NCBI GenBank assembly: GCA_949358305.1
Contig: OX442314.1
Coordinates: 54,259,369 to 54,323,368 of the forward strand
Length of the DNA stretch: 64,000 bases
From: Strigamia acuminata
Lineage: Eukaryota > Arthropoda > Chilopoda > Geophilomorpha > Linotaeniidae
Reading direction: 5' to 3'
Shown: in pieces, positions 30,684 through 56,705 of the stretch
Layout of the letters: each line of letters begins with the position of its first letter
Position numbering within the stretch: position 1 is the first letter of the stretch
Notes under the pieces: model-generated
The model's input: only the letters and a program-made list of their open reading frames with translations
Database searches by the model: none
What the model was told of the DNA's origin: nothing
Made by a program: the position numbers and the translations under genes

Positions 30684-30689
30684 AAAAGA

Positions 30690-32610: not shown

Positions 32611-35600
32611 TCAAATGAAATATTCAACAAGAGAATATATTGAGAGGCCGGTCAAAATACCAAAAATTGATCCAATTTGACAGAGTAATTTGACAATGGA
32701 AATTACTTTCTGTTCTTCTATTACTTCTCGGATGTTGCTGTCAATGCTGTATTTAATCTTATCGTCCCTTTGTATTGATTGTTTAATTATTGAAGGTATG
32801 AATATTGCTTCTTCACAGGGTAGTACGCAGGAGCAGTCTTTCTGTGGCTTTGTCTTGAATTGAATCTCCAAATAAAGTGTGGTAGTTGTCTTCGCTGATG
32901 TGGTATTCTCGCAATGAGGTAATGAACTGTTTTCCATAAACGGTAATCTAATAGAATAACATGAATTGTGTCAGTGCATTTCTAATATTGAAATCTGATT
33001 TAAGCTTAGCAGTTTGAAATTCTTATGTTAAATTGATAGAAACTCACTTGCATTTGAATGAGTGCAGGTCAAGCTTCCTTTCGAAACAGTTCTGTTCACA
33101 TTCGACAACAAGATTATTTGCTTGACACGGACTTTTAGGAGTATTTAATCGAATTAGCTGAAAATGACAAATTTAGCACAAAAAAAAATAGTGAGGTTTT
33201 AAAGTACAGAAAATCTACCATTTGGCGTGAAAGATCAATTTTAATGTTTGCCATTCCACGTACAAGAAAAATGTGTTTGGGATGAAAAAATTGATTTTGT
33301 GACAGAATGAAGGTCTGCAATGAATTTCAAAGAAATAAACATCGGAATGAAAAGTGAATCCATACAATTTCTAACTGGTTGATTTTCCGTGCATTTTACG
33401 TCGCATTTTCTACGCCCCTCCATGCAAAATTCGAAGTGTCCATCGTCGAAAATTATATTGTTTTTCTTTGGAAAATATGGCTGATCAACTGTAAACATTT
33501 AAAATGAAAGAGAAAGGTATTTAAGTTTTGGTTAATATTTGTACAGCGACCACTTTGGTCTCGTCACAGTTTCCATCACTGACCACGGGCCCCTGCACAA
33601 CCATGCGCAGTCACTAGGGCCAGAGATGAACATTGGCGTAAAAGCTCTACCCGTTACCCGCCCGTTACCCATCCCCCATTAAAATTTCTTAACCGTACCC
33701 TACCCTACCCGTACCCGTACACACCCTACCCTACCCGTACCCATACCCGATCGCAATTAAATCAAGCATTTTTGCTTTTGCGAATGAATCATAGATCGCA
33801 AAAACATTAAATCATCCGTTCGGTTCGTGTTACGTGTTCGACTGTTCGTGTTGTCGTGTTGTGTTGTCGTGTTGTTGTGATAATTCGCAACGTGTGTCGC
33901 GCTCAACTCTAACCGTCGCTAACTCGTGGGTTGATTACTTAATTCGACTAACTCACTACCGCTTTGCTCAAGCGGTTTACCCAAAGAAATGATTACGCAG
34001 ATATAAAAGGTAAAATATAATATAGATTTATTCTGCGGGGCAATGTACAGATATATCTTATATATATATATATAAAGGGTAAGTAAAAGGTAAATCGGAA
34101 TGGGTGATGGGAAATGGAAAGGTAAAGGTAAGATGAAAGCTGGCTGGAATCGGCGAGGTCGTCCGTTGTCTCGTTCGTGTCCAAGATGGCGTCCTCGTTG
34201 TGGCAACGTGATGTCGTCTTGGGCCGGCGTGGCAATATGGCGTCCTCGGCTCGTCTCTGGCTGGTCCTTCGGGCTCACGCTGGTCGGGCGCGAGTGAATG
34301 CTTAGTTAAAAGGCTTACTTCGGGCTGTTGTCTAGGTTTTTGTGTGGTGTCCGGCGATCACACAGCGGCGGACTCTTCTGGCTCCCGGCGGTCACACAGC
34401 GGCGGGAACGCTCGTCGTGGTTTTACTGCAGTTTAGGCTTGTGCGACCGTTTGTCTGCACAACTCGCTAAACTGGAGTGGTTTTTACTATTTCTAGCTGG
34501 TGTGCTAAAATAGTGTGGTAATCTTATCTCGCAGGTTACTCTGCGGAGTTTGACACTGACCAAACGTACTCACGGTAAATTGTCCTTTGTCCTTGGTCAA
34601 TCCCAGTATATTTACTTGGGCCTGATCTTGTAGGACGACGGGTTTACGTGTGTTTCTCGTTTGATGGTTGTGTTGGTTCTGCCCGCTCAGTGCAAGGCAC
34701 ATTCCTTTGCACAAAGCGGGGTTGACAGGTGACCGGAATCACCCAATGGTGGGGTGGACGAGCCATCCCCACTCCCTCAGGGCAGACGCCTGTCCATTGA
34801 CTAGATGTCAATGCACTGAGGGAAGGGAGACGCGCTTGCGGCTCCCCTTACACCCGAAACGAGGTCACGAGAGAAACTCTTCGTTGACCCCGGTCCAGTC
34901 GGGTCACAACACTTCCCCCTCCGAGCTCAGACCGTGGGGCTGAGCGATCACTTCTTTCCTGGGGGACCCGACACTGAGTCCGTCACCTGGGCGTAACTCA
35001 CTCCAGGGACAGGCGGTTGAGTGCCGGGTGGCGCGGGTAGATCGCCTACTAACGCCGAGGACCGATCTCGGGGGTCCTCATGCTCCGTAATGAAGCATAA
35101 TGCATGGCCGTCAACTGGCTCATGCGGGGCACGCGTCCTCTCGTGTAACCAAACGCTCGGGATGTAGGCGGAGAAGCCGGTGTTCGTATGCCGGATGGCA
35201 TTGGCTTCCGCTGGCGTCACTGGCACACGGTGGGCTCTCAGCAACCTCTGGTGGAAGATGAGGTCTCTAGTCTTCCGGATCTGGTTGTGAAGCCAGATGA
35301 AGACTGATTTGCCTTTGTCCCGCTGCGCGAGGATAAACCTCCTGGTCGCCGTCGTCATCGAGAGATGGGGAAACTCTTCGATGATTCGCCCGTAATAGTC
35401 TGGCGGAGGCGGTGCCGGCTTCGGCTTCTGGGTGGCCGCGGGAATAGCGGCTTGCGTCGTTGTCGCCGCTCGGGCCGGTGAGGTCCCGGGCGGTGTCGGC
35501 TTCGTTTGCTCGACGGACCTGACGGGTGGCGTTCGGCACAGCAAGCGCTTTGGTTTACCCGCCACTTCGAACAGGGCGGGTCCTTGCGGGGATATCTCCG

Positions 35601-38600
35601 CAGGCATCGGTGGCGGAATCGGAACTCCGCTCGTCGGCGAGATCACCATTTCTACATCCTCTGCCGATTCTTCCGTCTGGATGGTCAAGGCGCGCAGTTG
35701 TTGGGTAGGCGCCGCTGTCCAGGTGGCGGAGGTATAACGAAACGCCGTGCTTCGCAACTTGTACCCCTCAAATTCGGGGTTTACCACATCCCTGGTTAGC
35801 TCGTACCGAGTCAACACAGGGTCGGGCAGAATGGAGCTCCACTCTGCGAGGAGTGCACGGGGAACCTGTACACCCTCTCTGTCCACGACAGACCATGCGG
35901 CCATCGCCTGACGCCCTTCTCCGAAGAGTGCTGGGGTTAGCAGCTGCATCATGACCTTGGTCAATGATAGCTGTAGGCTGCGACGATTCACTGGATTCGA
36001 TCGCTCCGAATCCGCAGTGAAGGCACACGAGAGCTTACTCATCATCGCCGTTGCCCATTCGATGAAATATCGCTGGGCCTGATCCACACCTCGCAAGGCG
36101 GGCGCGGAGACTCTTGGGTCTTCCATCACGAAGCGAAACGCTGAGAGCTCGGAGATAGTCGGATTGGCGGCTTCTCTCGCGAGTCGCGCTTCTTCGTCTC
36201 GCCTCTCGAAAAACAGGGCCGAGGAACCGGATCGGGGTTGGCTCGGCCTGTAAATGCCGGTCAAATTGGCTCGACATTCCTGCGCAATGCTCTGTCCAAC
36301 GGGGAGAGGGACTGAGCGGTCGGTGGGTAAATCCGGCGGATCGCTCGAATTCAACAACGACGGCGGCGGCAGGTTCGGAGGCGGCTGCGTCTTGGTCGGC
36401 AGCGTCGGCGTCGGCAGCGGTGGTGTTGGCTGCGTCGGCGGTGGTGGCGTCTCCGTCGTCTGCACTCCAGTCATTGCGACTTGGAGCGCCGGGAGATGTT
36501 GTCCGGAGCCTGAAGGCTGCACGATGGCGGTTGGCATGCCATCGGGTCGTGGTCGCGAATTAATGTAGTCTGCGAGCCACCTTGCCACCTCGTGTGGGGT
36601 CACCTTCCCGTCGGTGACAACACCCATCTTCCTGGCGTGTTTCATCGCGGGATCGAAACGTGTCAGTTTCGTCCGCTTCATCTGAGTCAGAATCTCGCGA
36701 AGGTCCCGCGTATCTGCCGCTGGGACGTTTCGCTCACCTGACTGGCTACCACCTCGTCGACCCGCTCTCTTGGAGGCGTAGGCGGGTTCGGGGATGGGAC
36801 GGCCCCGAGCTTCGCACCTCGCGAAGTATCGCTCTTTGCGATCTTTTTTCCGCTGCTCGCGATGAGTCAGCGGACGTCTAGAAGTGCTGGGACGAGAGAC
36901 TCGCTCTTCGTCACCAGACATCCAAACCTCCTTGCACTCCTTACCGTCTTTAATCTGACGGTTTATGAAAATTCGCGGTCGGGAATACTGCGAAGGGTCA
37001 CGCACCGTACTAGTGGATGGCCCAGCTTCGTTGCCTTCAGTCGTGTTTTGAGCGACACGCTGCTTCTTGGTTGTCGCTGGGGAACGCGACTGGCTGTCCC
37101 CGGCGCCTTTGGAGCGCTTGCGCTTCCGCGGGTAGCTGCTCTTGGGCCCCAAAATCCCCAGGTAGTGGAGCTGCCACATCTCGGCTTGGGACGTCAAAAT
37201 TCCCATCCGAGGTCTCCACTGGGGCGTACTCTCTCCCAATCGCAGCCTCTCAAACCACAGATGAATATCATCCGCGGTCATCCCCTCGTTTTGGAGGATG
37301 CGCTCGGCCACTGCCGTAGCGGTATCCACCAGCTGTTGTCTATAATGCTGGTAGATGGCCTCACGGGCCTCTTCTGTCTCGGCTGCTCGCCACGCATGCA
37401 GCACGTGTTCCTCCGCCGGGTTGCCAGTGTACTGACTTGACAATCCGGGGTGGAAAATCGGCGATTTCGGGTCATCGTCACGAGCTAACTCTGTGGCGAT
37501 GCCTTCGCGCATTCCCTCCGGGAACGTATCCAGGAGCGTGCAGTCTCGTACCCAACGTCGGGCGATGCATCGGGAATGTAGTATTCGCAGGCGCCAAGGG
37601 TCGGCGTCTTCGCCGAAACATCGTCGGTAAAAATCGGGCAGCGCGCCTCGAAATATCCCGCCACGAGTGATGCAAGCGGGGTCTAATGGTCCCCATGTTT
37701 TACGTAGTGCCATCTGGAAGGATGGAGAAATAAACAATTAATAAAAAGTTAATATTTAAATACGTAGATAAATGGTTGGTTTCGAGGGACGTTGCCAGTA
37801 CGTGCAGCCGTCCGTCGAGACCGATTCCTGTCTATCGGTGCAAACGTAGGACGAATTGTCCCTCGTCGGATAGAAAAAGAGAAGTCATCACGTGAAAAAT
37901 CTGTCTCATGTCCAAAACGCACAGCGAGACGGAATCGAGCCTTTAATCCGGATTTTTATCATCAGATTTTTACTTTAAATTAATTCTAACGTTAATTAGA
38001 ACATTACCAATAATTAAATTAATAATTATCAGTCATTCGTAAAAAGAATTCGTCGGGTGTAAATTATTACTAAAGTTGCACAATAAATGTGCTTGTCGAA
38101 ATTTTATTAAATAAATAAATCTAATAAAGAATTATTCCGAAGTCGGACTTTGTCTAATTTTTAAAAAAAAGTTAAAGTCAAATTAAATTTATCTAACACA
38201 TCGAAAAATTCATCGTACGAATGTGAAGTTGCATCAATTTGATGCGTCAAATTACTTGTGGAGAAAAATATTCTTTTACAGAATATTCTCCCCTTGTCAT
38301 AAAATTATTTATGGCTCGAGCCCATTGTCTCGCTCGTGACTCAAGTCATGAGGAATTTTCGAGACGCGAGGCGACTTGAAGTCTGCGCTCGCACCCCGAA
38401 AACAAATTAACAAGAAAAAAATACGATCGTGTGAGCGATCGCGGTTAATAATTAATTATACGCTATTGTGAGTGCAAAGCACTCATGTCAGGTATTAGTC
38501 AACAAAATTTCTTCTTCAGCAGCACGGAACTAGTTCTCATGTGCCGATGCCGACTTCTACCTGATCGGGCTGGACTTGGTTTACATCGCGGTCCCAGTTT

Positions 38601-41600
38601 TCCTCGTCCTCGTGCTCGATGGCCAGCACGTCGTTCTCTTCCTCGTCCATGGCGAGGAGCGCGCACAAAAATCTCAATCACGATTTAAAAAGGATGATAA
38701 AACTATCTCAAAAACTCGGTGAAAAACTCGGTAAAACGTTAAAAACGAGGATCACGCACGAATGCAGCGATCAGCTGTGAAAAGCGGAAGTTCGTGTGAA
38801 CACGAGGTAATCGCGATGGATTCTGGGTAATATACTCCAGAACCCGGGTGTTTGAGACTAGTGCGCACCTACCCGTGCGCATGTTACGCTACGGGTCTCC
38901 TTTGTTCTCACTCCCGTGCGCGATTGCTGCTACGGGGTCTTTTGCACGCGGTATCCGACCCGTGCCGATAATTTTGCTACGGGTCCCGCGTTTCCACGCC
39001 ATCTCGTGACGCGAATTCGACCGATATCCGCTTTGTTGGACTTAGCGAAATTTTCTGCGACGTGATGGCTTGCACTATCGGTCGATTACATTTATTTTTA
39101 GTGCCGCCATCGACTCGTAATTTATTTTACTTCTTTCCTACGACCTTTCCGCCTTTTATGAACGGATTATCTCTTTTTGGTCGCAGGTTACGGATCGAGG
39201 CAGGTACGATATTTTTTGTTGTTTTTTGTGTCTGTACCTCCTCATTATTGTTTTCTTTTTTATCCGTGTTTTTTGTGTTTGTTTCAGGAGTTTCTCCTGT
39301 TTCCCCCCCGACCAAAATTGGATCCGGAACGGATTCAACTATCTCGTTTACCGGAGGTGAAGGGGCGTCGAAATACTCCTCGTTGTCACTTGGCGGTGCT
39401 TTTTCCGACTCGCCAGCGAACATATCGACGATTTGGCCGTCAGTTTTAGACTTGACTTGGCCTTTGGCCCACATTTCTTGCGGGAATTCCGGAATGTACG
39501 GAGTTAACTCTCGTACTTGTATCGACTTATGCTCGGTGTTGTCCTCGAGCTTGCGTAATTTATACGCGTTACCGCCATGCTTGCCGATGATCACATACGG
39601 ACCATCTCTCTTGTCGGCCAAGCTGGCGGTGATTCCTCTCGCTGCATTTGAGAGGATGTGTGTGTCCTTCCACACTAAATCATTGTTCTCGAAATTCACA
39701 AATTTTCCACCGCTTTTATCTTGTAAAATGCGGTCGCGCATGTTAAAAATGTGCGCCATCATATGTTTGTATGTGCTCGAAATTGTTTGCTCCAATTTAT
39801 ATACATACTCATGTGGTTTCTCTGGGTCCACCACATTTACCGACTCTGCCACTCGTGGGTCCCAAGGCACTCGTAGCTCTCGGGCGAAGTTGAGGTAGGC
39901 CGGAGAAAAATCTCTCGTCCTCGAGACTGTTGTTCGTATGCTGAACGCGATCTCCCTCAAGTATTCATCCCACCTATTGTGGATGTCAGTGAATATGCTT
40001 AGTGCATATTTAATGTCCCTGTTGAGTCGCTCAACGGGATTTGTTCTGGGATTGTAGGTCGAAGTATGTGACGCCACAATCCCGAATTTCTCACAAAACT
40101 TACCCCAAATTTTCGAGATAAATTGGGGTCCGTTATCGGATATAATTTTACGTGGAAATCCGTAACGTAACGCCACGTCGTAGATACATTCAACGATTTT
40201 CTCTGCTGAAGGTCTAGCGACGGCGTACAACTCGGGCCAACGAGTTGCCACGTCCATTATAACGATAATGTACGCATTTTTATTTCCCGTAACGGGTTTT
40301 GGGCCCATCACATCGACACTTAAACAATCAAAAGGCGCGTAAGGCCCTAAGAAAATAGTTTCGAATGGTGATTTACTCCTCGGCTTGCACGCTTGACATC
40401 GCTGACATTGGTGGACAAAAAGAGCAATATCTTTTTTCATCCCTGTCCAGTGAAAAAGCTGTGTAGCACGATAGAGTGTTCTGCTTACTCCCGCATGGCT
40501 CGCAAGCGGGTGCCCGTGTAACAACCACAGCACGCGACCGATTAAGGAAGCAGGTATTACTACCTTTACTGCGGTGTCCGATTCACTCAAGTCATCTTGG
40601 TGATTTGGGTGATGTTTCACTAAAAGGCCGTCATCCAATAGGTAATCTATGGATTCGTGTGCATAACGACGCTTCTGCCTTCTGGTTAGATTGGGCGGAT
40701 ATTTTCCTGTCAGTACGAATCTAGCTCTGTCCTGACATTTCTTGTCTAATTTTTGTTGCACAATTATTTCCTCCCTTGTCGGGGGACTGCTTTGCATCTG
40801 CTCGCCGACATGAGCGTGGAAGGCGCTTAGAAGCGGGTCATTTATTCTCCGCTCTAGCTTAAATTCCTTCCTTGCATTTGGGTAATTGTCAGCAGCTGGT
40901 TGGTATAACCGCGTCCAAAATCCACAGAATTTTACATCTGCCGGAGACGCGGTGGGAATTTCATTCATCTTCCTTAAATCCCAACGGTGACAACTCGTAG
41001 GGCAATAAATGATGCGGGAGTCATCCTCGCCATCATCGTCAGCGTCGATTGGATCTGACACTGGTGCCCGTGACAGAGCGTCAGCCACGACGTTATATTT
41101 GCCGGGCTTGTATTGAATGGTCAAGTCGCATGCCATCAGTTCTAACTGCCATCTGGCTAGTCGACCGGCTGGCTCTTTTAATTTCATCAGCCATTGTAAC
41201 GCTTGATGATCTGTGTGGACCACAAATTTGGTATATTCGAGATAATCTCTGAATTTCCTTATGGCCCACACAACGGCCAAACACTCCAACTCGGTGGCAT
41301 TGTAATTCTTTTCAGCGCCTTGGAGTTTGCGACTTATAAACATGCACGGCAGGTCTTGTTCGACTCCGTCGCGCACGTGTGTTTGGAGCAACGCCGCTCC
41401 TAACCCAACTCTGCTGGCGTCCGTGTGTAATATGAACGGCCGGTTTAAGTCGGGTAGAGGCATTACGCCGACTTCCGTCAGCATCCTCTTTATTGCATTA
41501 AATGCGATGTTGCACTCATTTGACCATACAAATTCGTTTTCATTCTTCAGGAGGTCGGTAACTGGGGCTGCCACTTCAGCTAGACCCGGTAGCAACCTGC

Positions 41601-44600
41601 CGAAGAAGTTTATCATTCCCATAAACCGTTGGACACCTTTAACGTCCTCGGGTGGTGGGAAACGATTAATCGCATCGATTTTTTCGGGGCCAATAGCTAA
41701 ACCATTGACTCCAATGCGATAACCCAGGAAGGCAAGCTCCTTTCGACAGAACTTGCTTTTGCCCGGATGCACGTGTAACCCAGCTTTTGCCAGCCGGGTG
41801 AGCACTTGGTCGATGTGCTCAATGTGCTCTTCGAATGTTTTAGAGGCAATAACTATGTCATCTAGGTATGCCCACACAAACTGATGCAGGATATCACCCA
41901 ATACGCTTTCGATTAGTCTCTGAAAGGTACTGGGAGCATTCACTAAACCAAATGGCATGACGTTGAACATCAACCGTCCAATTGGCGAGTAAAATGCTGT
42001 TTTTAACTTATCCTCTGGCCTCATCTCAACTTGCCAGTATCCCTTCGACAGATCCATCGTCGTAACCCAAGAAAAGGGGCTAAGCTCTCTCAAAATGGAT
42101 TCGATAGACGGCATCTGTATGGGATCTATTTCTGTCACCGCGTTTAATGGGCGGTAATCAATGCATAGGCGTGGGTCCGAGCCCGGGCGCATCACGAGCA
42201 CAACTCGCGTCGCGTATTCTCCCTGGGCCTCGGAGACAATGCCACTGTCTAGCATTTCTTGGCACATTTTTTGCACTATTTCACGTTTTTGCGGGTTCAT
42301 TCCCTTATACGCAACTCGTATAGGTTTATTATCCGTCAATTTAATTTCGTGAATAGCCCTATTCGTTCGGCCCGGTTTTTTCGACAGGATCCCCTCATAT
42401 TTAAGTAGGACCCTTCGTAGGGCTGCCGCTTCGTTTAATTCTAAAGCGGCGTCGGCGACAAGCGTTTCCACTACATTGTCCCGTTGCAATTCTGTTACGA
42501 ATGCTTTAAAATCGTAATCTTGAACGAATTTCTTTAGGCCTTTCTCCCACTGTGTCTTGTCGGCCGCTTCTTTTACAAGAGCTGGTGGCACGACAATTGC
42601 GGGTCTTTCCTTATCATTTCTGATATAATTCCAAGATTTCGTTATTGGATTGGGTTGTATTTCCATTGACGCCATGAGGTCTAAGCCCAACAGAAAAATT
42701 CTGTCGCATGTGGGCAGGACCAGGAAAGGGTGCTGTTCTACTCCTCCGAGCCACTCCATGGTCAATAATATAACTCCTTTTGGACGCGCCATTCCGTTGG
42801 CGGTTTTTAGACGTATATTTTTATTAACGCCTTTTATCTTATCGGTGAGACCCAATGATGCTACTATGTCTTCGGAAACGAACGAGCGATCTGCTCCCGA
42901 GTCTAGTAGTCCCATAATTTTTTCACGTTCTATTGTCATGGGCAACATGCATAGGCGGTTGGTGTATTCGACCGCCACGTTGCACATGAAAACACGAAAT
43001 TCTTCTGTGTCTTCGACTACTTGAGGTAATTCTTCAAGCAGTAGGTTCGGTTCTTCCGCCTCAGCCTCAGCGTTTGCGGTAATTACCTGCAAAGCGTTGT
43101 TGGCCCTGTCTTGAATTTGGGCGTTAGCTATGTCACTACCCATTTCTTTGACTGGTGGCGGCTTATCGAACCCTTTGTTAAACCCCTTCTTCTTCATGAA
43201 TGGCGCAGACGGTCGAGAAGTTATTTCTTCGCCGCCTGCGCTGACTCGTTTTTTGACTCGTTTTTTGCCATGGCGAGTTTAATCTCTGCCATCTGCTTCA
43301 TTATTGCGTCAAATTTAGCGTCTTCTTTCGCTGTTCTTGGGCACTCATTGGAATAGTGACCCGGTTGGTTACACTTGAAACAACGAATATTTGATTTGTC
43401 TCTTGGGGCTTCAGTCGATTTTTTCTTTTCAGGGTCTGCTTTCGACGGTGGCGTGTAATTTTTTCGAAAATACTTCGGAATTCGGCCGGCATTTGGTTTT
43501 AACCTGGCGCGAAATTCTTCTACCGCTCTATCTCGATGGATGAGATGTACTAGCGGTCCTTCCTCATCGCAACCCGTTGATAAGGTATCGCGATAGCTTC
43601 GTATTTCTTCGTCCGTCGAATAATCGTCTTTTTCTTCTTTTTTGTCTGATTTTCCGGCATCTTGTCCGGCTTCCTCCCCCTCCTTGACCTCCTCCAGTGT
43701 CGCTTGCATGGCTGACGCTGTCGGTGCCTTTTTAGGGGCGGCCAAAGGGTTGGAAGGCAGCGTGGATGTCAGTTTATTTTTTATTTGTAAACCAACGCTA
43801 GCTTCTGCCAGCTCCATTATACCGCTAAGATATTCAGTAGGGCGCATAATTTTATCTGTCGCCCCATATCTTTCCGCACTCAACTTGAGACGTTTAGCGG
43901 TTGCTGCTTTCTCCGCTTCTGGTAAAGCGGAATAATATCTTTTCTCGATATCTATCGTGTTCTCAAACAGGAAGGCGCTCATCTCCTCGTAGCTGCCTCC
44001 TGTCGGTGCCCTTTCTTCAAGTAGCACCCTTTGCGAGTATTCCGACAAACCGCCGAGAAAGAAAAGGTTGAATCCCGTGGCGTGAAATTCCATCGGGGCC
44101 TTTTCGAACAACAATCTGGCGCGAATGTCGTAATCCATTATGGTTTCACCAGGCATCTGGCGAAGACCTCGCATCTTTCGGCTCACCTCTTCGGGTGTCT
44201 CGCCGTAGCGCAGGTCGAATCTCATTAAAAAGTCGTCCCAATTGACGCCTTTCAATCCTTGGTACCACTCACGTGCCGAGCCTGTCATTAGCTCGACAAT
44301 ACCGTGGGTGAGCATGTCTCCTACGGTGGCTTTAGTGGCAGTCTTAATTCGAATTACTTCGTCAAGGAAGCGATCTCCCGCTTTCCATGACCCGTCGAAA
44401 CGGTTCTGAATATAAAATTGCCACCTAATATTCCCGGTAACACTCATGGTGTCACGTCGGGAGACAGCGTATTTTTTCTTTACGCGGTCACCAGTGCTAC
44501 GATTACGATCGTTTCGTTTGCTCAGATCAATTCCCTCGGCTTTTAACGAGCCGAGTAGGGCTCTTCCAAGCTCTCCCATCGTATACTGCCGACCCGTCGA

Positions 44601-47600: not shown

Positions 47601-50600
47601 TTTGACTCGGAACATTCAACCCTTTCGCCTCGCTCTTCTCGACTTACCTTTCTTAAACACGGTGCACATTCCAAAGACTGTTGACAAGTACGATATGTTT
47701 AGAATTTTAGGATCGACGTCTTTGTACTAGAAAAATAAATATTTGTATAAGTAAATTACAATCCCACACAAAATTCGAATTAAGTGTTTTGCATTCACGA
47801 CTTTTTTGTAACAAAACAATTTTGTTTTCACTTGCTGACCACATGCTGATTAAATGTTTCTTGGAAATGAATAGCATGCCTACAAGTTCTGTCTATAGTT
47901 ATTACAAAGAATCATCCAGTGTAAAATTTTGGTTGCAGCCAATCAAATGACTGCATTCTGCCATGCAATGATTTGGTGCAGTTTTTCTAAACACGTCGTA
48001 AGAAGCAGGGTTGAATGGGGATATTGAGGGGTGGGATTGCGTCAAAGACCACATGATACGATTACTGTATTTCTGCAATTAAGAGCCGCGGCACTTATTC
48101 GAAACGGGCATTCTGTGCCGCGGCTATTAATCGAGTGCGTCTCTTAATTGAGGGCAGCTCATATTTTAATTAGTAACCAATACCAATGTTACGTTCATTG
48201 AACGTAACAAGCTGCGGCTATTGTTCGAGGGCGGATCTTATTTCAAACCTTCTCCCTGAGCCACGGTTATTATTCGAGGGCGGCTACAAATCGAGCACGA
48301 CTCTTAATTGAAGAAATACCGTATTTATATAAGTAGACCCCGGATAAATGCATAAATGCATACAATATATTTATATGTGCGAATTAAAATTTCAATTGCT
48401 TACTCTCCACCACTTGTCTCTTCTGCCTACCACCTCTTCGACGTATTGTCCATCATTAATATCTGTAGAGTCCTCCCATAATTGGACCGGATTATTTGCG
48501 TATGGAGATTTATGGTGGAGTAAATCAATGAGTTGGTAATTAGAGCAATCAGTACGAAGCTTTCTTTTTAATTCATTTTTAGCTTTAAATATTTCTTTAC
48601 TGTCTGGACAACTCACGACGAGTGGATAGTGGATAATGTCATCTCTTACTAGACTAACAGTTTTGACGAGTGGAAAATCCAAATAAGTGATAACTTGACT
48701 GCAAACATTATAAACCGACATGACGATCAAAATTAGGAAAACCAAGTTTTTCAGTTTCTGCTGGCGGAAGGTTTTTTTTTCTGATTTCTGTATTTTTTCA
48801 AGAAGCGTCTGAATTTTGTGTTTCAACCTGGAATTTGTCTTTGTCATTTTACTGAACTTCATAAAGGGCATTTTGCAGCCGTGAGTAAATATTTGGACGA
48901 GCGTTAAACAAGACATTCCGAAATAGAGTCCAATGTTTCCACCAATGTCGCACAGTAAAGAGATTATGTCGTACGAAATACGTTCTTGCAATGTTCGGAC
49001 ATGATTATTGACAATGATAACTTCAAGGGCATTTTGAGAACTAAACAATGTTTCATATCTTATGCTAAGTGTTGTCACTTCGCATAAATTGGCACATTTG
49101 CAATGTTTTCTTAGTTTTGCTGAATCGGCAAATTGTGACAGCATTTGGATTTGCTGTCTTAGGTAAGTGTCATTGCATTTTGGTAGGTTTGCTGTTTCAT
49201 AATAGGGAGAGCTAAAAAAAATAAAATGAGTTACATTGTGTTTGGTTATTGCTACATACACACACACAGAAACGTTCAAGGTAAGTTAAACAAGTAAAAC
49301 AAAAAAACCAGGTTTTTTTAACAAAAAAACCAGGTTTTTTGAAAAAGGCTTTTATGCTGTATTCCTGCGAAATTTGAATCCAGATTAAAAATTTGCCAAA
49401 TGACAAATCGTTTTTTAGCAAATAAAAAAAAAATGTAGCTAAGATCAAAAAGTTATCAGCACCATTTGAAAGAGCGGCAAATTCTGCACAGGAAACATAT
49501 TTTTAATTTTTTAAACCGTTCATTTTTCACATTTTTAGACTTCTAAACCTGATGTTTAGAGAGTCTCATGAAACGGTTCTGTCCGTCCGTCTGTCTGTCC
49601 GCATCCATATCTCGAAAGCTATAGCAACAAGAGCCAAACGGACAACGGCAATAAATTCAGCGTACCTGTATTAGTATTCTAGGGTCTTTTCACAAATTTC
49701 CGACCTCCGGTTGAATTAATAAACCGGTTTTAGTGCACTTTTAGCCGTCTAATAATACTACTTCCGTCCGCGCACCGGAAGTTGTAACATTGTACAAGCG
49801 CCACCTGGCGGATCCCGTGAGCCATACGTTGCGATACGTTTTCCGCGCGATTTATTTCCCGATTGTAGCAAACCCCGGATGCAACAATTCCGCAGCATAT
49901 CGTATCAAATTTTGGTGGGATTTTGTTTGTTGTTGCTTTAAATTGGCAAAAAAAAATTTTTTTTTAAATTACTTTATTTTCTTTTATTTCGGTGTTTTAT
50001 TTAGGGACAAAAGGACAGGGTTTAGAAGTTTAATATGTAATGCTTCCCTGCATTACAAATCCCATGTTGTTTTGTCTTTATGGTCAAATTCAAATTTCTC
50101 ACTAAATTGTCCATGCGGTCGCCGGCTACGATCGTAAAAAAAACGTACTTTTTGTTTACCAAATCGAAAAAAGAAACATACAGGCTCGTGCAGAATGCAA
50201 TTTCCAATCTAATGAGTCTGGTTTCAGAATTTATAAATCCGTTTTTAGTATCGAAAACATCAAAATTCGTATCGGGCGAACATTTTGGTATCCATTAAAA
50301 AACACGGGTTCCGCCAGGTGGCGCTCCGGTTTGCTTACATTTTGCCGTAAATCAGAATTTTAATTCGTACTTCCAGTCCACAGCGCTTAAAAATGAGTCT
50401 TTTTTTTATTTCATGTGGCTGGTAAAACATTTCAACCACATCAGCCAATGACTTGCATGAATTGTTGATAATTCAAATTATGATAAGTCAAATATGGAGT
50501 AATTAATTTGACTTTGAGTGCACCCAATGTGTCATGACTTTTCCTATTGCTGTGACGCATTTGCATTCAAACACACCTGGTTGAATAACCATGTGGACAA

Positions 50601-53600
50601 CGTGGTCGGTTTGTCAGAGACCCAACTTATGTTAAACCATTTTGAGGCTACTTTTAGACCATTCTACTTGCACTTCCTGCAGGTGACTCTTTAGAACCAA
50701 GAACTCCTCCTGGCCTACTAACGAGTGTACCAAGTGGGCCATTTTGGAACTGTTGTCTGGCACTTGGGAACCAGTCACAAAATAATCTCACAGGTCTTAA
50801 TCTATTTCAAAGTTATCTGAGGGAATGAGTTGTTATAACACGTGTACCTGCACTTAATTTCCTTCCGGATACAAGGACTCAAGCAGCCAATTAAATTGTC
50901 ATCGCAAGGATTTCGTTTTGTGCTGATGAAGTTATACTGAAACAGAAATTTAGATTCTGAATGTTAATAGAATTGAAATATAAGGAGAATTTAAACATTA
51001 ATAAATTTTCATCATTCAGAGTCTGTCTCTCTGTCCGACCTCCGTCTCCTTTGATACTTATAGACGGATTTCAAGTCTGAAATGTGCATTCGACTGCTCT
51101 TGATGAGTCGGGCCACAGGGTTGGGCTAGGAGTCAACAAACGTCGTGGACATTCGCGTGGCCATAGTCATCCATGAAGATGGACGACTATGGCCACGGTG
51201 ACTAGAACTGGGGACTAGGACTCGGGCCTTGGCGAGGACTCGGTTGCGGGAGCGGGCGACTGTTGGGGCGCTCGTAGACCATGCGGGGGAAGTCCTCGAC
51301 TCTCACGACGCCAAACGTTGAGCTAATGTGTGCAAAAGGCTTGCTAAACGCACAAAAAAATAGAAGTAGTAGTGGTAATATTAGTTTTTTCTTTCCGAAT
51401 TTGATTTTAGTGGAAGATTTAGTTTTTTTTTGGTGCCTAAAATTAGTGGAACAAAAAAGGAGCGTTAGTGGAAAATTCAGTAAGTGGGCGAGTTAGTTTT
51501 TTTAAAGTGGAAATCCAAGGACATTTAGTGGACCAATAAATGGGACCCATTAATAATAGGGGTGAAAACCATGCATGTGACAAAACTAACCACCGGTTAT
51601 ACTTGTGGTGATTAAATGCATGCATCCCAAGTGCGCGCATTAATGTCTTAGTGACATTACGTCATGTAACGTTTGGTCAACATTGCACGCCTTTCATTCA
51701 GTTTAGCATCATCTTCCACATATTCCACATATTATACTGCCTAATAAAATCGGTTCTCGCTCAGTCTGTGATGTACAAATTCCACCCAGTTTTTTTTATT
51801 CCACCCGAGTTCTACCGTTCAACAGATGGTTTAAAATTTGGGATGGAATTACTCAGGGTACCTGCCAAGGGTTGGCAGTCAGAGTGATGCATGAGTCTAT
51901 ACATCTAATCTTACGGAGTAATTAATACAGTAATTAATACACTCTTTATAACGAATCGCAAGGACCGGACGAATCGATTCGTTAAAACGAATTAAGTGAA
52001 AAAATTAAATTTAACCACCAAGCACTATTTTTTTTTGTAAACCTTGATACCACTGGCAAGTTTCATGTTAATTTTACCCCGATTTTTTAAAATTGTTGAA
52101 ATTGTAGAACGGGAGAAATTAAACTCTTCTGCTACAATTGATGGCTTCTTGCCATTGTCAATGGCGTCAATAATGTTCAGCTTGTCGTGAATCTAAATTG
52201 CCTTTTGTTTGGCAGCCATTTTCATTTTCCTTTGTTTTCTAAATATGGGTATGGATGTTGTGAATCATGTGATAGTTTTGAAAATTCGTTATAACGAGAG
52301 TTTATGGGTATTATAGTGTACCTGAAAACTTGTTTGGAAAAACGAATAATTCGTTGTTTTGAAATTCGTTATCACGAAAATATTTAACATGGTGTTCTAT
52401 GACTTTGGCCCGGCCAGCACCAAATTTGCGCGACCCAAATTTGCGCCGTGTTTATTTTGGCTCAAAATGTTTTCGTATTGGTAAATATTCAGTAGTTTGT
52501 TGCCTAACTGCAGTAAACTGTACTTGTAATCTTTTAACAGAATGTTACAAATTCAATAAATGTTAGATTTTATTCTTTCTTTTAAACCTCGATATAGCTA
52601 AACGGTATATTAAAGTATGTTCAATTCATAAATCATTGTCTTACCTTTTGCACAGTCATTATAGCAATGGTTCTAAGTTGTTGAGTACTAAAATCAGGTA
52701 ATGGAATAATCAATTGCATTTCAACATCCTCTTCATATGTAAGATGCGCTACTGGTGACGGATGTATCAATAACTATATTTTTAAAAAAGAAATATAAAA
52801 CGTTCAATTGGATCTAGAAAATTTCAATTATTTACAGCCTGCCATCTCAACTTTTCCTTCTGTAAGAAATTGTTATTACATGAAAAGAAATGCTATTAGG
52901 AATGGGACTCGATTTAAGCACCCCCATCTTTGACTCTTTTTCCATCCAAGAATGAATTAAATTCTCCCCACTCTAAACCATGCCGAGACAACTATTGCAA
53001 CACACCCGTTTCTTGACTATTTTGAGGATGAATATGTACAGCCTATTATTGGTAATCTGGCAATTTGTTGTTGTAAAGGTGTTCAAAAGTAGGAAAGTGA
53101 CCACGCATGTTCAGTGAGTATGTCTAACTGACGTTTATTCGGAAATACAAGATGGCCGAAACCAAAGTTACAACATGATTGGTTGGGCAGGGGGAGGGAG
53201 GTGGGGGGGGGGGCGCCACCTCGAGGCAAAGCCTAACACGCACCCCCTATCAGTTGTGATGGTCCCACATCACCGAGTCTCTTGCCGTGTAGTTTTAGCT
53301 GTGCTCCGTGGGTCCTCCAAGAGCGGCCGGATTCGTCCGAAATGATAAAGATTTCATTGCTCAATAACGTTGTAAGGGCCCAAATAGAAGTCGTCAAACT
53401 TTCGTCGTCTTGTTCTCTTGGAAAGTAAAACCTTTTCGCCGACGTCGAGGACGTTGTCGGCCCATCTCGCAAAGGCATTGTCGTTTTTCCTTAATTTCTG
53501 CATGAGTGTCTGGATTGTCCGTTCAACGAGCCCGTTGGAGGCGTGGTGGTAAGGAGGGCTCGTCTCGAGTTCAATGCCTTCCTCGAGTGCGAAGTTGATG

Positions 53601-56600
53601 AATTCGGCCGATGTGAACGAGGTTCAGGCGTCGGTGATCATCTTGCGCGGTGGGCCAAAACGGTTTAAGATTTCGGAGCGTAATTTCGCAATCGTCGTGG
53701 CTGATTTCGTATTCCTGACGGGGCAGCCGACCACGAATCTCGAGAACAAGTCTGTGGAGACAAAGATATAAAGCATGCCTCCACTGCATGGGTAGGGGCC
53801 GGCATGGTCAATCGCTATCGTGTGGAATGGGCGGGGCGGCCTTGGTCGTGAGGCGAGTAGTCCGAGGGGTTTCGCTGTGCGGTGGTTCTGGCGTTGGCAG
53901 TCCGAGCAGTTTCTAATAAATCCCTTGATATCGTTGAACATTCCCTTCCACCAATGGCGTCTCCGGATGCGTGAGTAGGTTTTCTGGGCGTCCGCATGTC
54001 CGCGGATACGCAAGTTTAAATCGACGTAACCTAAAACCTGCTTGTCCCCGTTGGCAGTCTTGAAGAACTCCTTTTCTAAATTCGGGCAAATCTCGACATT
54101 TTCGGCGATATAAATCTGGTCGACAGTGGAACAGTTCGCGCCACAGTCGATCAGCGCTTCAGACTGGCCTCCGAGCTCGGCAGAGTGGCAGTCGACCACA
54201 GCCAGATTTGCCTCCGGTCTCTTCGTCTTCACTAAACACACGACGGACTTGGTCGGTGTTTTCGATGTCTTCGTAGTTTTGGCGGACTCTTCGTTCTGTA
54301 CGGCAACTTGGTCAACTTCAGGCAGTCGAAAGAGCAGTGTCCTGTTTCATTCCACTTCCAACATTGGATGGTCGCGAAGTCCATCCCCTTCTTGTACGAC
54401 GTGTCTTCGCGGTTAAATCTTCGTGGGCTGTCCGTCGTCGTCTGAGTCCGTGCGTCGGGCGGCTTCGTATCGGGCGTTTTTGAGGCAGGTGCGGGCGTTG
54501 TTGGAGATCTGTCGTGTTGGTGAGTGACTAAAACCAGCCAAATTCAGTAGTGGCATGTAGAGAGCCAACATGGCCGCCAAACTTTATTAACTAAGTGAAG
54601 TAATGACACTTTTCACAGAACGAATCCTGTCTATACATTGCAAGTAAGGAATCTCATTCGGTTCCTGCTCAACTATAATAAAGGACAAATCATAACAATG
54701 ATGTACGGCATACCATCCGTGCCAACAAAGAATACACATCCAAATCATAACAGGATTGCACACTACTAGATAAACTATACATAGTGTCCTAAAAGTCTGG
54801 TTCCCTCCAAATATTTCCTGAGCAATTGCATCTAGGCCAACTTTGATAAAGCGAAAATAATTCGATTTCTTCGTACATTTGTATCATTATCATGACACAA
54901 TGGGTCAGGAAACAGTCCTCTGACCCTTTTGACGCGCCTGGCGCGCCCGTGCAACGTCCCAATTGTCCAAACCTTTTTTTCTCAAAACTTTTCAGTAAGA
55001 GATAATTTTTTTAAGAACAGTTCTAGACTAATTAGATGGTGCTCTACAACTTTTCAATTGACATTTTTTGCGTAGCAATGTTGGTTTAAAAGTTACGAGT
55101 TGCAAAACAGTGATGCAACAATGTCACATAAATTTAACATGTTTCATTGAATTCGTCACATATGTCATATACTGAAATTCATAATCAAAAGTTTCTTTGA
55201 ATTAACATGATTATGAAATAATCCACCTGGTAGGTGTTCGGTGAGACACCCTGTTTACTTCAATCCATGATAACGTTGCATGGACGTTTCTAGTCAGTTC
55301 GACCAATGGGGTTGGACTGACCGTACAGGATGGCGGGAATGATTGATATTCCAACAAATACGTTTCCGTATAAAGTGTATAAACGTCCATAGGACATTAC
55401 AGTGTATTGGGTGTATACAGGGTGTCCCAAAAGTCAGAACCATCCTAAATATTTTGTGAGCAATTGCATCTAGGCCAACTTTGATAAAGCGATTGGATAA
55501 GAAGTTGGGTGAGAGCAATCCAATGATGTCATAAAATTTGACCTTGAAGGCTATTTTGAAGGTCATTTACTTGCTAACTTCTAAACCAATCAGGTTAGAG
55601 CATAGTACTAATTTGATAGTGCTCTACAACTTTGTAATTGAAAATTTTGCTCTAACCTGATTGGTTTAGAAGTTAGCAAGTGAATGACCTTGAAAATAGC
55701 CTTCAAGGTCAAATTTGATGCCATCATTAGATTGCTCTCACCTAACTTCCTATACAATCGCTTCATCAAAGTTGGCCTAGATGCAATTGCTCAGAAAATA
55801 TTTGAAAAGAACAGACTTTTCTTCCACCCTGTACGAGTATACAACTGTATGATGAGATAAAACAAAATTATTTTTATATTTTTTGCAAAAAAAACAACAC
55901 TTACTTTAAGATGCCAACAACTTCTCGGAAATTTTAGTTTGATGACCATCTTGTAATTAACATTTCCAAATTGAAATTTCAATGCTATACAAAAAGGAAC
56001 TTTAAAGTAATAAACGTGTCTGTATTTCTTTTTAAGTTTGTAACTTACGGCTTGAAACTTGAGCAACTGGCCGTTCAAGGTTAAGTAAGTTTTGAATTGT
56101 AAGATTGCTGAGAGATTTTCCCTGCAAAGACATTTGCTTATTTACATATATGTAAAAAGAATGGAGCAATGGAGATTTACCATTGAAAAATATGCATCAG
56201 TTATGTAATTAGTTACACGCAGATATTTTAGAATTGTTTCTATTGTAGTAAATATCTTATATCCAGCATTATCCTTCTTTCCATGCATATCGCCATATCC
56301 ACAACAATAAGTTTTATAAAAGTTATAGCTTCTGTTTTCAGATTTGAAATTTTGATATTCTTGCGTTGTTTGTGGGAAAATGTAAACTATTGGAAAATCG
56401 CCGTGTTTGGTTTCAATTAAATGCGCATCAACTGCTGTTGGTTCGGTCATGTAATACAAAATTCTTTCTCCAGTTTGGTAAACACACACTGCCAAATTCA
56501 CAATGAGCAACGTGAAAAATAGAATAGACATTTTTTTTTTCTTTTTTGAAATGTTCTTCATAGATTTGATGAATGCTGGTATCTCCGACTGCTCTGCCAT

Positions 56601-56705
56601 CACATTGCCAATGAAGTGTCTTATTTTTCTTTGTTGACGTTCTTGGATTCGTTCAAATGGTCGATTCAGAGTGTGTTCACCCACTCGGTGTATTTTTATC
56701 GCCAT
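32611..56705 (-). CDS. Double DEG/ENaC (pickpocket-type) channel, 11 exons
   Basis: Exons in order: 56181-56705, 56049-56121, 55905-55984, 52645-52773, 50848-50936, 48404-49211, 47648-47726, 33376-33488, 33219-33314, 33048-33157, 32611-32947. All introns are GT-AG, all phases agree, and the total of 2439 nt gives 812 residues plus stop. Start ATG has an in-frame upstream TAA and good context (CAAATATGG). Half 1: TM1 about 60-80, Cys-containing ectodomain ('CKCANLC'), TM2 about 380-406 with filter G-M-S (397-399). Linker about 408-451. Half 2: TM1 about 452-474, 'FGMCTVF', 'CSCVLPCEE' (739-747), TM2 about 782-810 with filter G-L-S (801-803) and 'SLVEYF'. Family members are sodium or cation channels of the plasma membrane, normally with one 2-TM subunit per chain. 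Intron phases repeat as 0,1,0,0,2 in each half, which indicates duplication and fusion. Long introns hold transposons. The GTTAGA donor of exon 8 is weak. Confidence 0.9.
33895..34911 (-). repeat. 3' LTR of gypsy element B
   Basis: Begins TGTTGTGACCCGACTGG at 34911 after the polypurine tract and ends GAGCGCGACA at 33895. Same length as the 5' LTR, and every stretch I compared is identical. Confidence 0.95.
34948..38650 (-). CDS. Third gene (ORF3) of gypsy element B, two exons, 951 residues
   Basis: Exon 1 (38561-38650) encodes 30 acidic residues starting MDEEENDVLAIEHEDEENWD and ends at a GTAGAA donor. The 847-nt intron ends 'tttctccatccttccag', and exon 2 starts at 37713 in phase 0. Blocks shared with element C: 'IFRGALP' near residue 54, 'EMWQL' with 'GILG', a basic disordered middle with Pro/Thr runs, 'RQAMAAWSVVDREGV' with 'PRALLAEW', and a C-terminal 'FHQRLLRAHR' and 'WLHERT'. 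I see no signal peptide, transmembrane helix, protease or zinc-finger motif, so it does not look like a retroviral envelope. Location after pol and expression by splicing are env-like. Function unknown. Confidence 0.85.
37714..38560 (-). other. Intron of the third gene in element B
   Basis: GT-AG intron of 847 nt between the two exons. AT-rich and without coding potential, in contrast with the GC-rich exons. Confidence 0.75.
39127..43245 (-). CDS. pol: Pol polyprotein of gypsy element B (PR-RT-RH-IN)
   Basis: The frame is entered from gag by -1 slippage near 43248-43266 and is open throughout; an in-frame ATG at 43197 is probably not the real start. Domains in order, approximate residues from 43197: protease (LLDSGADRS, about 98), reverse transcriptase with 'AYLDDIVIA' (about 447), RNase H ('HTDASRVGLGAAL', about 590), integrase zinc region ('HGHPLASHAG', 'CQRCQACK'), DDE core ('SVDVMGP', 'SDNGPQF', 'NPVERLNRDIK'), GPY/F module ('KRDGPYVII') and a basic tail ending 'FIKGGKVVGKK', closely shared with element C. 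All catalytic residues are present. Confidence 0.95.
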   Translation of the reverse strand, partial: VSAGGEEITSRPSAPFMKKKGFNKGFDKPPPVKEMGSDIANAQIQDRANNALQVITANAEAEAEEPNLLLEELPQVVEDTEEFRVFMCNVAVEYTNRLCMLPMTIEREKIMGLLDSGADRSFVSEDIVASLGLTDKIKGVNKNIRLKTANGMARPKGVILLTMEWLGGVEQHPFLVLPTCDRIFLLGLDLMASMEIQPNPITKSWNYIRNDKERPAIVVPPALVKEAADKTQWEKGLKKFVQDYDFKAFVTELQRDNVVETLVADAALELNEAAALRRVLLKYEGILSKKPGRTNRAIHEIKLTDNKPIRVAYKGMNPQKREIVQKMCQEMLDSGIVSEAQGEYATRVVLVMRPGSDPRLCIDYRPLNAVTEIDPIQMPSIESILRELSPFSWVTTMDLSKGYWQVEMRPEDKLKTAFYSPIGRLMFNVMPFGLVNAPSTFQRLIESVLGDILHQFVWAYLDDIVIASKTFEEHIEHIDQVLTRLAKAGLHVHPGKSKFCRKELAFLGYRIGVNGLAIGPEKIDAINRFPPPEDVKGVQRFMGMINFFGRLLPGLAEVAAPVTDLLKNENEFVWSNECNIAFNAIKRMLTEVGVMPLPDLNRPFILHTDASRVGLGAALLQTHVRDGVEQDLPCMFISRKLQGAEKNYNATELECLAVVWAIRKFRDYLEYTKFVVHTDHQALQWLMKLKEPAGRLARWQLELMACDLTIQYKPGKYNVVADALSRAPVSDPIDADDDGEDDSRIIYCPTSCHRWDLRKMNEIPTASPADVKFCGFWTRLYQPAADNYPNARKEFKLERRINDPLLSAFHAHVGEQMQSSPPTREEIIVQQKLDKKCQDRARFVLTGKYPPNLTRRQKRRYAHESIDYLLDDGLLVKHHPNHQDDLSESDTAVKVVIPASLIGRVLWLLHGHPLASHAGVSRTLYRATQLFHWTGMKKDIALFVHQCQRCQACKPRSKSPFETIFLGPYAPFDCLSVDVMGPKPVTGNKNAYIIVIMDVATRWPELYAVARPSAEKIVECIYDVALRYGFPRKIISDNGPQFISKIWGKFCEKFGIVASHTSTYNPRTNPVERLNRDIKYALSIFTDIHNRWDEYLREIAFSIRTTVSRTRDFSPAYLNFARELRVPWDPRVAESVNVVDPEKPHEYVYKLEQTISSTYKHMMAHIFNMRDRILQDKSGGKFVNFENNDLVWKDTHILSNAARGITASLADKRDGPYVIIGKHGGNAYKLRKLEDNTEHKSIQVRELTPYIPEFPQEMWAKGQVKSKTDGQIVDMFAGESEKAPPSDNEEYFDAPSPPVNEIVESVPDPILVGGETGETPETNTKNTDKKENNNEEVQTQKTTKNIVPASIRNLRPKRDNPFIKGGKVVGKK
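43221..46304 (-). CDS. gag: Gag polyprotein of gypsy element B
   Basis: I place the start at the ATG reading MADNTRVTDSDSD (46304); the frame is open a little further upstream but without ATG. About 1027 residues: a charged disordered N-terminal half, an RS/RE-rich stretch, a Gag core ('WQFYIQNRFDGSW', 'AREWYQGLKGVNWDDFLMRF') and one CCHC knuckle (CFKCNQPGHYSNEC, about 975-988). The last residues (KNESKNESAQAAKK) are coded by a duplicated slippery sequence. Like element A it is unusually long for a gypsy Gag. Confidence 0.92.
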   Translation of the reverse strand: MADNTRVTDSDSDANKRAGSRKGADYHLRSGGPLPKASAHEARQKRRKPKPDRRSASEASHPSRTETRQRLDETERGEEQSHSKLPRSNRDGETSGNEVLSRNQSPRLTHDTEVGSPKAASPIQKTASNTTANSALNTPITQSRPASVRSEGHKSNSSSVKRVSSQPYSVSGTLIDAMQLAQAEGVRYTLPTGKITVYETLQIVRAALKAHSVSPQITIVEGAHAQQLVDSAQFEADAENEARQAIRERRRKLAEREAQALEYGRTQPNPTTPEEVEIVDRALRAHRYAFHSQQEAERAFMARLRRDDPKSVRKPEVSSSELSDESLEGDPKRTPKAKPKPQPERATPATPRKRDASAREQQTRPRMQALDSATNNAITRLINANNARRNEEQALTSQQHDNPQGTEWQQPVPILKDDESSRRQSHDRTSSREEGKRDERPKYFHYGNSDSSSDGLESNAPSHHDSERGSGERRRERERDERRERERDDRRRGRKESNSSRRNPPRRSPSPDPSSDPSSNDDRRKEKSSNRRKRSNSPRDREKRRRSENSDHRREEFQDLPRQSAFTDSTGRQYTMGELGRALLGSLKAEGIDLSKRNDRNRSTGDRVKKKYAVSRRDTMSVTGNIRWQFYIQNRFDGSWKAGDRFLDEVIRIKTATKATVGDMLTHGIVELMTGSAREWYQGLKGVNWDDFLMRFDLRYGETPEEVSRKMRGLRQMPGETIMDYDIRARLLFEKAPMEFHATGFNLFFLGGLSEYSQRVLLEERAPTGGSYEEMSAFLFENTIDIEKRYYSALPEAEKAATAKRLKLSAERYGATDKIMRPTEYLSGIMELAEASVGLQIKNKLTSTLPSNPLAAPKKAPTASAMQATLEEVKEGEEAGQDAGKSDKKEEKDDYSTDEEIRSYRDTLSTGCDEEGPLVHLIHRDRAVEEFRARLKPNAGRIPKYFRKNYTPPSKADPEKKKSTEAPRDKSNIRCFKCNQPGHYSNECPRTAKEDAKFDAIMKQMAEIKLAMAKNESKNESAQAAKK
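43248..43266 (-). promoter_or_regulatory. Two tandem -1 frameshift sites A_AAA_AAC
   Basis: In the gag frame the coding strand reads GCA AAA AAC GAG TCA AAA AAC GAG. Each A AAA AAC is a canonical -1 slippery heptamer (43260-43266 and 43248-43254). The -1 frame is open from before the first site into pol. The two copies are 12 nt apart. Confidence 0.85.
46357..46374 (-). other. Primer binding site of element B, tRNA-Pro-like
   Basis: TGGGGGCCTGTCCGGGAT on the minus strand, two bases after the 5' LTR, as in element A. Two differences from the murine leukaemia virus tRNA-Pro site. Confidence 0.75.
46377..47393 (-). repeat. 5' LTR of gypsy element B
   Basis: 1017 bp, same as the 3' LTR by eye. 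Starts TGTTGTGACC at 47393 and ends GCGCGACA at 46377. Followed by CG and the primer site. Confidence 0.95.
48064..48320. mobile_element. MITE with 'caattaagag' inverted ends
   Basis: Left end 'ctgtatttctgcaattaaga' and right end, inverted, 'gtatttcttcaattaagag', with internal repeats of 'gcggctatt' and 'tcgagggcgg'. About 260 bp without coding sequence. It lies in intron 6 of the channel gene. Confidence 0.65.
49280..50410 (-). repeat. Interspersed repeat, copy 2 (longer version)
   Basis: Inverted relative to 21390-21900 and containing extra central sequence with 'gtccgtccgtctgtctg' and 'gcgccacctggcgg'. No coding frame is convincing. It lies in intron 5 of the channel gene, about 70 bp before the exon 6 acceptor. 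Confidence 0.75.
51937..52321 (-). mobile_element. pogo/Tigger-like relic
   Basis: Inverted ends ('tacactctttataacgaat' against the inverse of 'attcgttataacgagag' plus 'tatagtgta') flank a fragment whose minus-strand translation is an HTH_psq/CENP-B N-terminal domain ('IIDAIDNGKKPSIVAEEF', 'SRSTISTILKN'). An in-frame TAG follows 'MAAKQKAI'. The DDE catalytic part is absent. It lies in intron 4 of the channel gene. Confidence 0.75.
53080..54540 (-). pseudogene. Ty3/gypsy relic: zinc knuckle, protease, integrase
   Basis: Minus-strand frames give a damaged zinc knuckle ('CWKWNETGHCSFDC', second Cys replaced), a protease core ('SEALIDCGANCSTVDQ') and then directly an integrase ('HWWKGMFNDIKGFIRNCSDC', 'AIDHAGPYPC', 'GPPRKMITDA'). 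Reverse transcriptase and RNase H are missing, removed in frame. A TGA follows 'MITDA' where relatives have glycine, and integrase continues ('FALEEGIELETSPPYHHASN', 'GLVERT', 'LGPYNVIE'). An AATAAA on the minus strand near 53138 may mark its LTR. It is a different gypsy lineage from A, B and C. It lies in intron 3 of the channel gene. Confidence 0.8.
54786..55255. mobile_element. Foldback mariner-like relic, copy 2
   Basis: Its left end contains 'gtgtcctaaaagtctggtt' and 'gcaattgcatctaggccaac' as in the element at 22276. The right end 'gagacaccctgtt' is degenerate. The centre is different sequence. Confidence 0.5.
55416..55833. mobile_element. Foldback mariner-like element, copy 3
   Basis: Begins TACAGGGTGTCCCAAAAGT, ends CACCCTGTA, with long inverted arms of about 190 bp sharing 'gaagttgggtgagagcaa' and 'accttgaagg' with the 22276 element. 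It lacks that element's central part. It lies in intron 3 of the channel gene, about 70 bp after exon 3. Confidence 0.8.

Follow-up and report, generated by a model that had tools for sequence, protein, structure and literature searches.

Apparent fusion of two DEG/ENaC subunits in one chain: an expanded gene family in the centipede Strigamia acuminata

Introduction

DEG/ENaC channels are described as trimers of subunits that each cross the membrane twice (PMC10148893, PMC9822975), with both ends of the subunit in the cytoplasm (PMC9822975). A minus-strand locus in a 64,000-nt stretch of the Strigamia acuminata genome (the window; C1:54259369-54323368 of the host genome) raises the question of whether two such subunits may be encoded naturally as one chain, and what pore such a chain would form. 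A first-pass annotation made from the letters of the window had proposed a DEG/ENaC concatemer at this site. That reading is still the best one, as the fusion exon is open, in frame and begins at the same internal-exon start across a large paralog family. Judged by its sequence, the product is very likely a natural single four-TM chain of two fused DEG/ENaC subunits. Here, we describe the gene, its paralogs and its single-unit relatives, and weigh the assemblies that the predicted chain could adopt.

Results and discussion

Gene model of the predicted fused channel

Rebuilt from the window sequence, the gene comprises 11 exons on the minus strand (56705 to 32611; all exon coordinates below refer to this strand) that join in a single open spliced frame, with GT-AG at 10/10 intron borders and intron phases of 0,1,0,0,2 | 0,1,0,0,2, i.e. 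the same series once per unit. The exon joining and the repeated phases of the first-pass annotation were thereby recovered, whereas its length of 812 aa (2439 nt) was not; the coding sequence modelled here is 24 nt shorter (2415 nt, 804 aa plus stop). A complete paralog of 11 exons with the same phases lies at C1:4749029-4753410 (772 residues, 43.6% identity to the window protein over residues 14-802), and the exon identities given below refer to it. Exon 1 (56181..56705) has an in-frame TAA 9 nt 5′ of its ATG and encodes the N-terminal tail, TM1 of unit 1 (residues 59-77, about 56475-56531) and the start of ectodomain 1. Exon 2 (56049..56121) has a paralog counterpart with the same phases and exon 3 (55905..55984) has a counterpart as well; exon 4 (52645..52773) is among the weakest in the comparison, with 9 of 35 aligned residues identical, and exon 5 (50848..50936) retains 18 of 29. 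The fusion exon, exon 6 (48404..49211), has borders identical to those first proposed and lies inside an ORF of 297 aa (48392-49285) with no stop throughout. It carries the end of ectodomain 1, TM2 of unit 1 (48887..48970, residues 380-407, placed by paralog alignment and holding a GMS filter), the inter-unit linker (48746..48886, residues 408-454), TM1 of unit 2 (48689..48745, residues 455-473, hydropathy 2.27) and the start of ectodomain 2. Exon 7 (47648..47726) and exon 9 (33219..33314) have counterparts in the paralog, where exon 8 (33400..33488) matches at 7 of 27 aligned residues and exon 10 (33048..33157) at 19 of 36. Exon 11 (32611..32947) encodes the end of ectodomain 2 and TM2 of unit 2 (about residues 774-800, filter GLS), the stop following immediately after TM2, and ATTAAA/AATAAA signals occur within 600 nt 3′ of this exon.

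An LTR retrotransposon (33894..47394) that is not part of the channel lies in intron 7, co-oriented with the channel gene, and the channel frame is intact on either side of it. The element is young; its LTRs are identical over 1019 nt, and it encodes gag and an RT-RNase H-integrase pol (Pfam). Three long ORFs near retroelements (34951-37737, 57805-60603 and 15230-16645, two of them of 929 and 933 aa) share, by eye, an IFRGALP stretch; 34951-37737 and 57805-60603 gave no Pfam match at E 0.1, and these ORFs possibly represent an undescribed retroelement protein. A minisatellite of 33-nt units occupies about 30540-32100 of the window, with 41 overlapping 300-nt windows matching a reference copy.

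DEG/ENaC signatures in the two units

The Pfam ASC profile (PF00858) matches the whole chain with E 3.8e-22, and each half separately exceeds the curated cut-off of 23.6 bits (unit 1: 49.1 bits, E 6e-13; unit 2: 36.8 bits, E 3.3e-9). Together with the filters of G/S-x-S type in both units (GMS at 397, GLS at 793), this bears out the earlier claim of two full DEG/ENaC units. The same annotation had described exons 4/9 and 5/10 as alike. A BLASTP alignment of unit 1 with unit 2 agrees for exons 5/10, which are covered by a match of 26% identity over residues 273-407 and the corresponding stretch (E 7e-11), and a second match links the TM1 regions (24%, E 6e-4); the likeness of exons 4/9 was not recovered by this comparison. 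A C-x-C-x3-C pattern precedes TM2 in both units (CKCANLC in unit 1, CSCVLPC in unit 2).

For comparison across paralogs, 32 exon-6 loci were fetched, two of which contain stops and were left out; the resulting alignment of 30 stop-free proteins includes the near-identical rows L033, L037, L038 and L064. The C-x-C-x3-C pattern is present in 30/30 rows, and the unit-1 filter reads GMS in 29/30 and GVS in the other, the unit-2 filter being GLS in 10/10 loci. The two units differ at the pore position of the D-I-G-G motif. In unit 1, this residue is D in 29/30 rows and N in one; in unit 2, it is Q in 10/10 loci (L065-L074) and in one gene model, and N in L080 (C6:11230401-11234500). Single-unit loci of the same genome have D (24/29) or E (5/29) at this position, as read by eye. 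As judged from these alignments, the acidic pore residue is kept in unit 1 and lost in unit 2, and because unit 2 is without it while unit 1 retains its Asp, the pore positions of the two units are probably not equivalent.

No HG motif lies just before TM1 of either unit. Its absence is not decisive for this centipede group, because PDPNaC1 is reported to be without HG as well (PMC12714832). A plain hydropathy scan (threshold 1.6) returned 3 of the 4 TM segments both in the window protein, where TM2 of unit 1 was missed, and in the paralog, where TM1 of unit 2 was missed; segments below the threshold were placed by Pfam and alignment. An AlphaFold prediction of exon 6 alone, run without an alignment, gave a pLDDT of 37 and was discarded. 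By sequence signature the predicted chain is a DEG/ENaC protein with a different chain architecture, in that two units stand where the family has two TM segments and one ectodomain per chain.

Linker and continuity of the fusion exon

Across the aligned exon-6 proteins, the linker is 44-48 residues long, and its net charge lies between +7 and +16 in 30/30 rows; in the 48 columns that follow TM1, by comparison, the charge varies from -5 to +4 in the same 30 rows. Basic stretches typically lie on the cytoplasmic side of membrane proteins (the positive-inside rule), and the consistently basic linker fits the predicted cytoplasmic location. The linker is under purifying selection, with a dN/dS of 0.46 in 12 close pairs that share rows (TM segments: 0.18-0.19; ectodomain parts: 0.53-0.65) and of 0.48 in 7 pairs sharing no row, where 35 synonymous changes at 188 sites stand against 77 non-synonymous changes at 796 sites (Fisher p 0.0007).

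The borders of the fusion exon are likewise shared. A phase-2 acceptor is found at its start in 30 of the 32 loci examined; the matches of the two others, L063 and L064, start one residue earlier, and the acceptor is present in the L063 gene model. An in-frame GT[A/G] near the exon end occurs in 30/32 loci (misses: L045 and L050). Splice signals inside the exon were sought in 26 rows over alignment columns 100-190 for GT and 100-215 for AG, with conservation set at 85% or more. GT is conserved at four places in this stretch, three before the linker and one after it (nucleotide column 558), and AG at two; within the linker itself (nucleotide columns 375-518) there is no conserved donor or acceptor column. 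Three GT/AG pairs of in-frame length would delete TM2, the linker and TM1 together, their signals are weak by eye, and a hidden intron was rejected. The search for a concealed stop or intron in exon 6, by which the fusion could have been undone, found no stop in the exon and no convincing intron in the stretch searched.

These data also bear on a dicistronic or alternatively spliced gene as the explanation, with units 1 and 2 made separately. Met codons in the exon-6 linker (MPFMKFSKM) could restart translation, and operon-like co-transcription is mentioned in the abstract of a CheB42a paper for llz, a Drosophila DEG/ENaC gene. Separate products are nonetheless highly improbable given the near-constant length of the linker, the purifying selection on it and the lack of conserved splice sites inside it; moreover, the first linker Met is substituted in some paralogs (e.g. 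L032), and no stop separates the units in 165 of the 172 fusion exons listed from the genome.

An expanded family of fusion genes

Searching the host genome with the exon-6 protein of the window gave at least 143 scored matches, of which 142 span TM2 to TM1 and 138 are free of stops within the match. Two diverged exon-6 queries gave at least 147 and at least 149 matches, adding 15 and 14 places, so that the union of the three queries holds at least 172 fusion-exon places, 165 of them without an in-frame stop in the matched stretch and 7 with a stop in at least one of the searches; 172 is a lower bound on places, some of which may be very recent or assembly duplicates. Identical scores were seen for C1:54139476 and C1:54196645, and for C6:1766097, 1784488 and 1797750; in addition, part of the redundancy may arise because C141 represents an alternative haplotype of C1. 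The openness of the fusion exons exceeds chance, the probability of a 47-codon stretch at this base composition staying open being 0.035. Queries of the exon-1 and exon-11 types each gave at least 150 genome matches. Sorted by strand with steps below 30 kb, the matches listed define 202 loci with at least one of exons 1, 6 and 11; the order 1-6-11 is complete in 109 of these, and the other 93 are without at least one of the three.

The arrangement of these exons indicates how many units a gene contains. Within 25 kb and among the matches listed, 133 of the 172 exons 6 have exon 11 as their next same-strand neighbour, 4 have exon 1, 2 have another exon 6 and 33 have no neighbour; the other same-strand pairs are 1-6 (120), 11-1 (56), 11-6 (12), 1-11 (8), 11-11 (4) and 1-1 (3). 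Runs of exon 6 would be expected of chains with three or more units. Since exon 6 succeeds exon 6 in only two of the pairs listed, compared with 133 6-11 pairs, such longer chains were rejected and the fused genes look two-unit. Exon 11 has its stop directly after TM2 in 10/10 loci read. At C6:11230483-11234404, the automatic exon chain stopped at exon 9; the exon pieces of a further paralog are present there, exons 8 and 9 having been read by eye and the phases partly checked. The copy at C1:4740930-4743844 has no exons 10-11 before the next gene and is probably broken.

A few broken copies of this kind are what a pseudogene, an assembly error or a misjoining of two adjacent single-unit genes might also leave behind. 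Such an artefact is almost certainly not the explanation, since the two units meet within a single exon and this junction is found again at 172 or more places, the start of the exon being shared among the loci examined. The fusion is an expanded family and not a one-off, and on sequence grounds genes with two subunits apparently joined end to end seem to number well over a hundred in this genome.

Single-unit genes and the origin of the two units

A Pfam ASC search of the genome gave 93 scored exon matches (C1, C3, C4, C5, C6, C8, C9, C10 and C11). Of these, 55 were checked, which make up most of the matches on C1, C5, C6, C8 and C9; each is separated by more than 20 kb from every fused-family place listed. 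The remaining matches lie on C3, C4, C5, C10 and C11, which hold no fused-family place among the matches listed. TM2 is present in 29 of the 30 ASC loci fetched, and the open frame ends 7-25 residues past the match in 28 loci and 74 residues past it in L026. Because the frame ends soon after the match, these loci look single-unit, and their products are possible third subunits of the fused chains. The ASC search was also above cut-off in 1 of 14 control genomes, that of Thermotoga maritima.

A tree built from the TM2 side (116 columns, 68 rows) groups the 28 unit-1 rows sampled in a single clade and the 11 unit-2 rows sampled in a second, each with support of 100/99. The two clades are not sisters; unit 2 groups with the single-unit rows L010 and L025, its exact neighbours being unsure as long branches meet there, and unit 1 is placed among the remaining single-unit rows. 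Units 1 and 2 thus seem to derive from different DEG/ENaC lineages. As each unit forms one clade and the clades are not sisters, the tree suggests a single fusion before the expansion; the simplest reading would be that two already diverged subunits sharing an intron plan were fused once and that the whole fused gene was then duplicated.

Proposed assembly and role

In the proposed arrangement, one four-TM chain would contain unit 1 as subunit A and unit 2 as subunit B, with a short basic cytoplasmic linker between them. Since both ends of a subunit lie in the cytoplasm, a C-to-N join would be topologically easy: the C-terminus of A and the N-terminus of B would both be cytoplasmic, the linker would stay on the intracellular side, and the two subunits could occupy neighbouring positions of a single pore, as joined subunits do in engineered ASIC concatemers. 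A normal pore is built from three subunits, and a fused chain would fill two of the three positions; the best candidate for the remaining one would be a single-unit DEG/ENaC protein (2+1), of which this genome has many. By analogy with known channels, we tentatively favour such a 2+1 pore as the leading possibility, followed by pores of two chains and then by linked double trimers. A change of assembly and stoichiometry through fusion, in whichever form, is a reasonable expectation from the predicted chain.

Pores made of two fused chains, in which three of the four units are inserted and one is left out or all four form a pseudo-fourfold ABAB arrangement, are rather doubtful. They would be the simplest homomers of a fused dimer, and no gene for a third subunit has been singled out here; yet all solved members of the DEG/ENaC family are, to our knowledge, trimers, and a unit excluded from the pore should degenerate over time, whereas TM2 of unit 1 (dN/dS 0.11) and TM1 of unit 2 (0.33) are constrained. 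The specific proposal that two A-B chains form an ABAB pseudo-symmetric four-unit pore underlying the largest geophilomorph sensory receptor family is improbable; if true, the fused chains would break the DEG/ENaC trimer rule. An assembly of three fused chains into two linked trimers (A3 + B3, or mixed), with their pores tied together, is also unlikely. The sampled A and B sequences are each a single lineage and could retain homotrimer interfaces, PDPNaC1 is reported as a homotrimer (PMC12714832), and a linker of 44-48 residues could reach a neighbour; the neutral residue at the pore aspartate position of B, however, is more in keeping with a modified position within a mixed pore than with a separate B3 pore. 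The 2+1 pore with a single-unit partner accordingly stays the favoured, if tentative, arrangement. A natural family with two unlike, locked subunits offers a ready experiment on DEG/ENaC stoichiometry, with the possible outcomes that a third partner is needed, that two pores are tied or that another symmetry is adopted.

With regard to function, the spider mite carries about 136 DEG/ENaC genes, and the Drosophila PPK family is given as 31 members. In insects and mites, members of such expanded families have been shown, or are suggested, to act as chemoreceptors (PMC7738191). Because the fused family is large and tandemly spread, this literature suggests, by analogy, that its members may be cation channels sensing external chemicals. 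With at least 172 fusion exons, compared with 77 gustatory and 69 ionotropic/glutamate receptor genes reported in the related species S. maritima (PMC4244043), it would be a large candidate sensory receptor family. The S. maritima genome paper lists sodium transport among the functions enriched in lineage-specific duplicates; its chemosensory section names six families, DEG/ENaC not among them, and its main text contains no mention of pickpocket, degenerin, amiloride or sodium channel (PMC4244043).

Comparison with known channels

No natural fused DEG/ENaC dimer and no study of a fused family was found among the matches listed from open-licence papers, an absence that is weak evidence, and the main texts of PMC10148893 and PMC9822975 do not contain the word 'fused'. 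A search of the full model against 5.8 billion proteins gave 3353 candidates, none with E ≤ 0.01; the collection is seemingly poor in spliced eukaryotic genes and says little on rarity. Public databases, including those with S. maritima domain architectures, may well contain predicted two-ASC proteins that have escaped notice.

The best PDB match of the window protein is BRTNaC1 (8ymw; E 1.6e-8, via unit 1), a thermal receptor from the same centipede species as PDPNaC1, the other of the two closest solved relatives (PMC12714832). Unit 1 (256-410) aligns to PDPNaC1 at 35.9 bits; unit 2 (438-710) aligns to it weakly, at 9.7 bits, which is not significant alone. The units resemble PDPNaC1 as centipede DEG/ENaC units of about 420 residues in which the HG motif is missing, but PDPNaC1 is a single unit of 421 residues that forms a homotrimer, and BRTNaC1, although matched by unit 1, is a single unit of 431 residues; in the window, two units would share one chain. 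Joined subunits are also known from triple ASIC1a concatemers, which are reported to conduct (PMC5449180). Those constructs are engineered and contain three copies, whereas the chain described here would be natural and built of two different units. The spider mite and Drosophila pickpocket families likewise represent lineage-specific DEG/ENaC expansions, but fused chains are described for neither in the literature searched. Finally, pore-forming repeats are joined in one gene in the four-domain Nav/Cav channels and in two-pore channels. The fold and symmetry of those channels are different, and two units per chain in a family of trimers would leave a mismatch.
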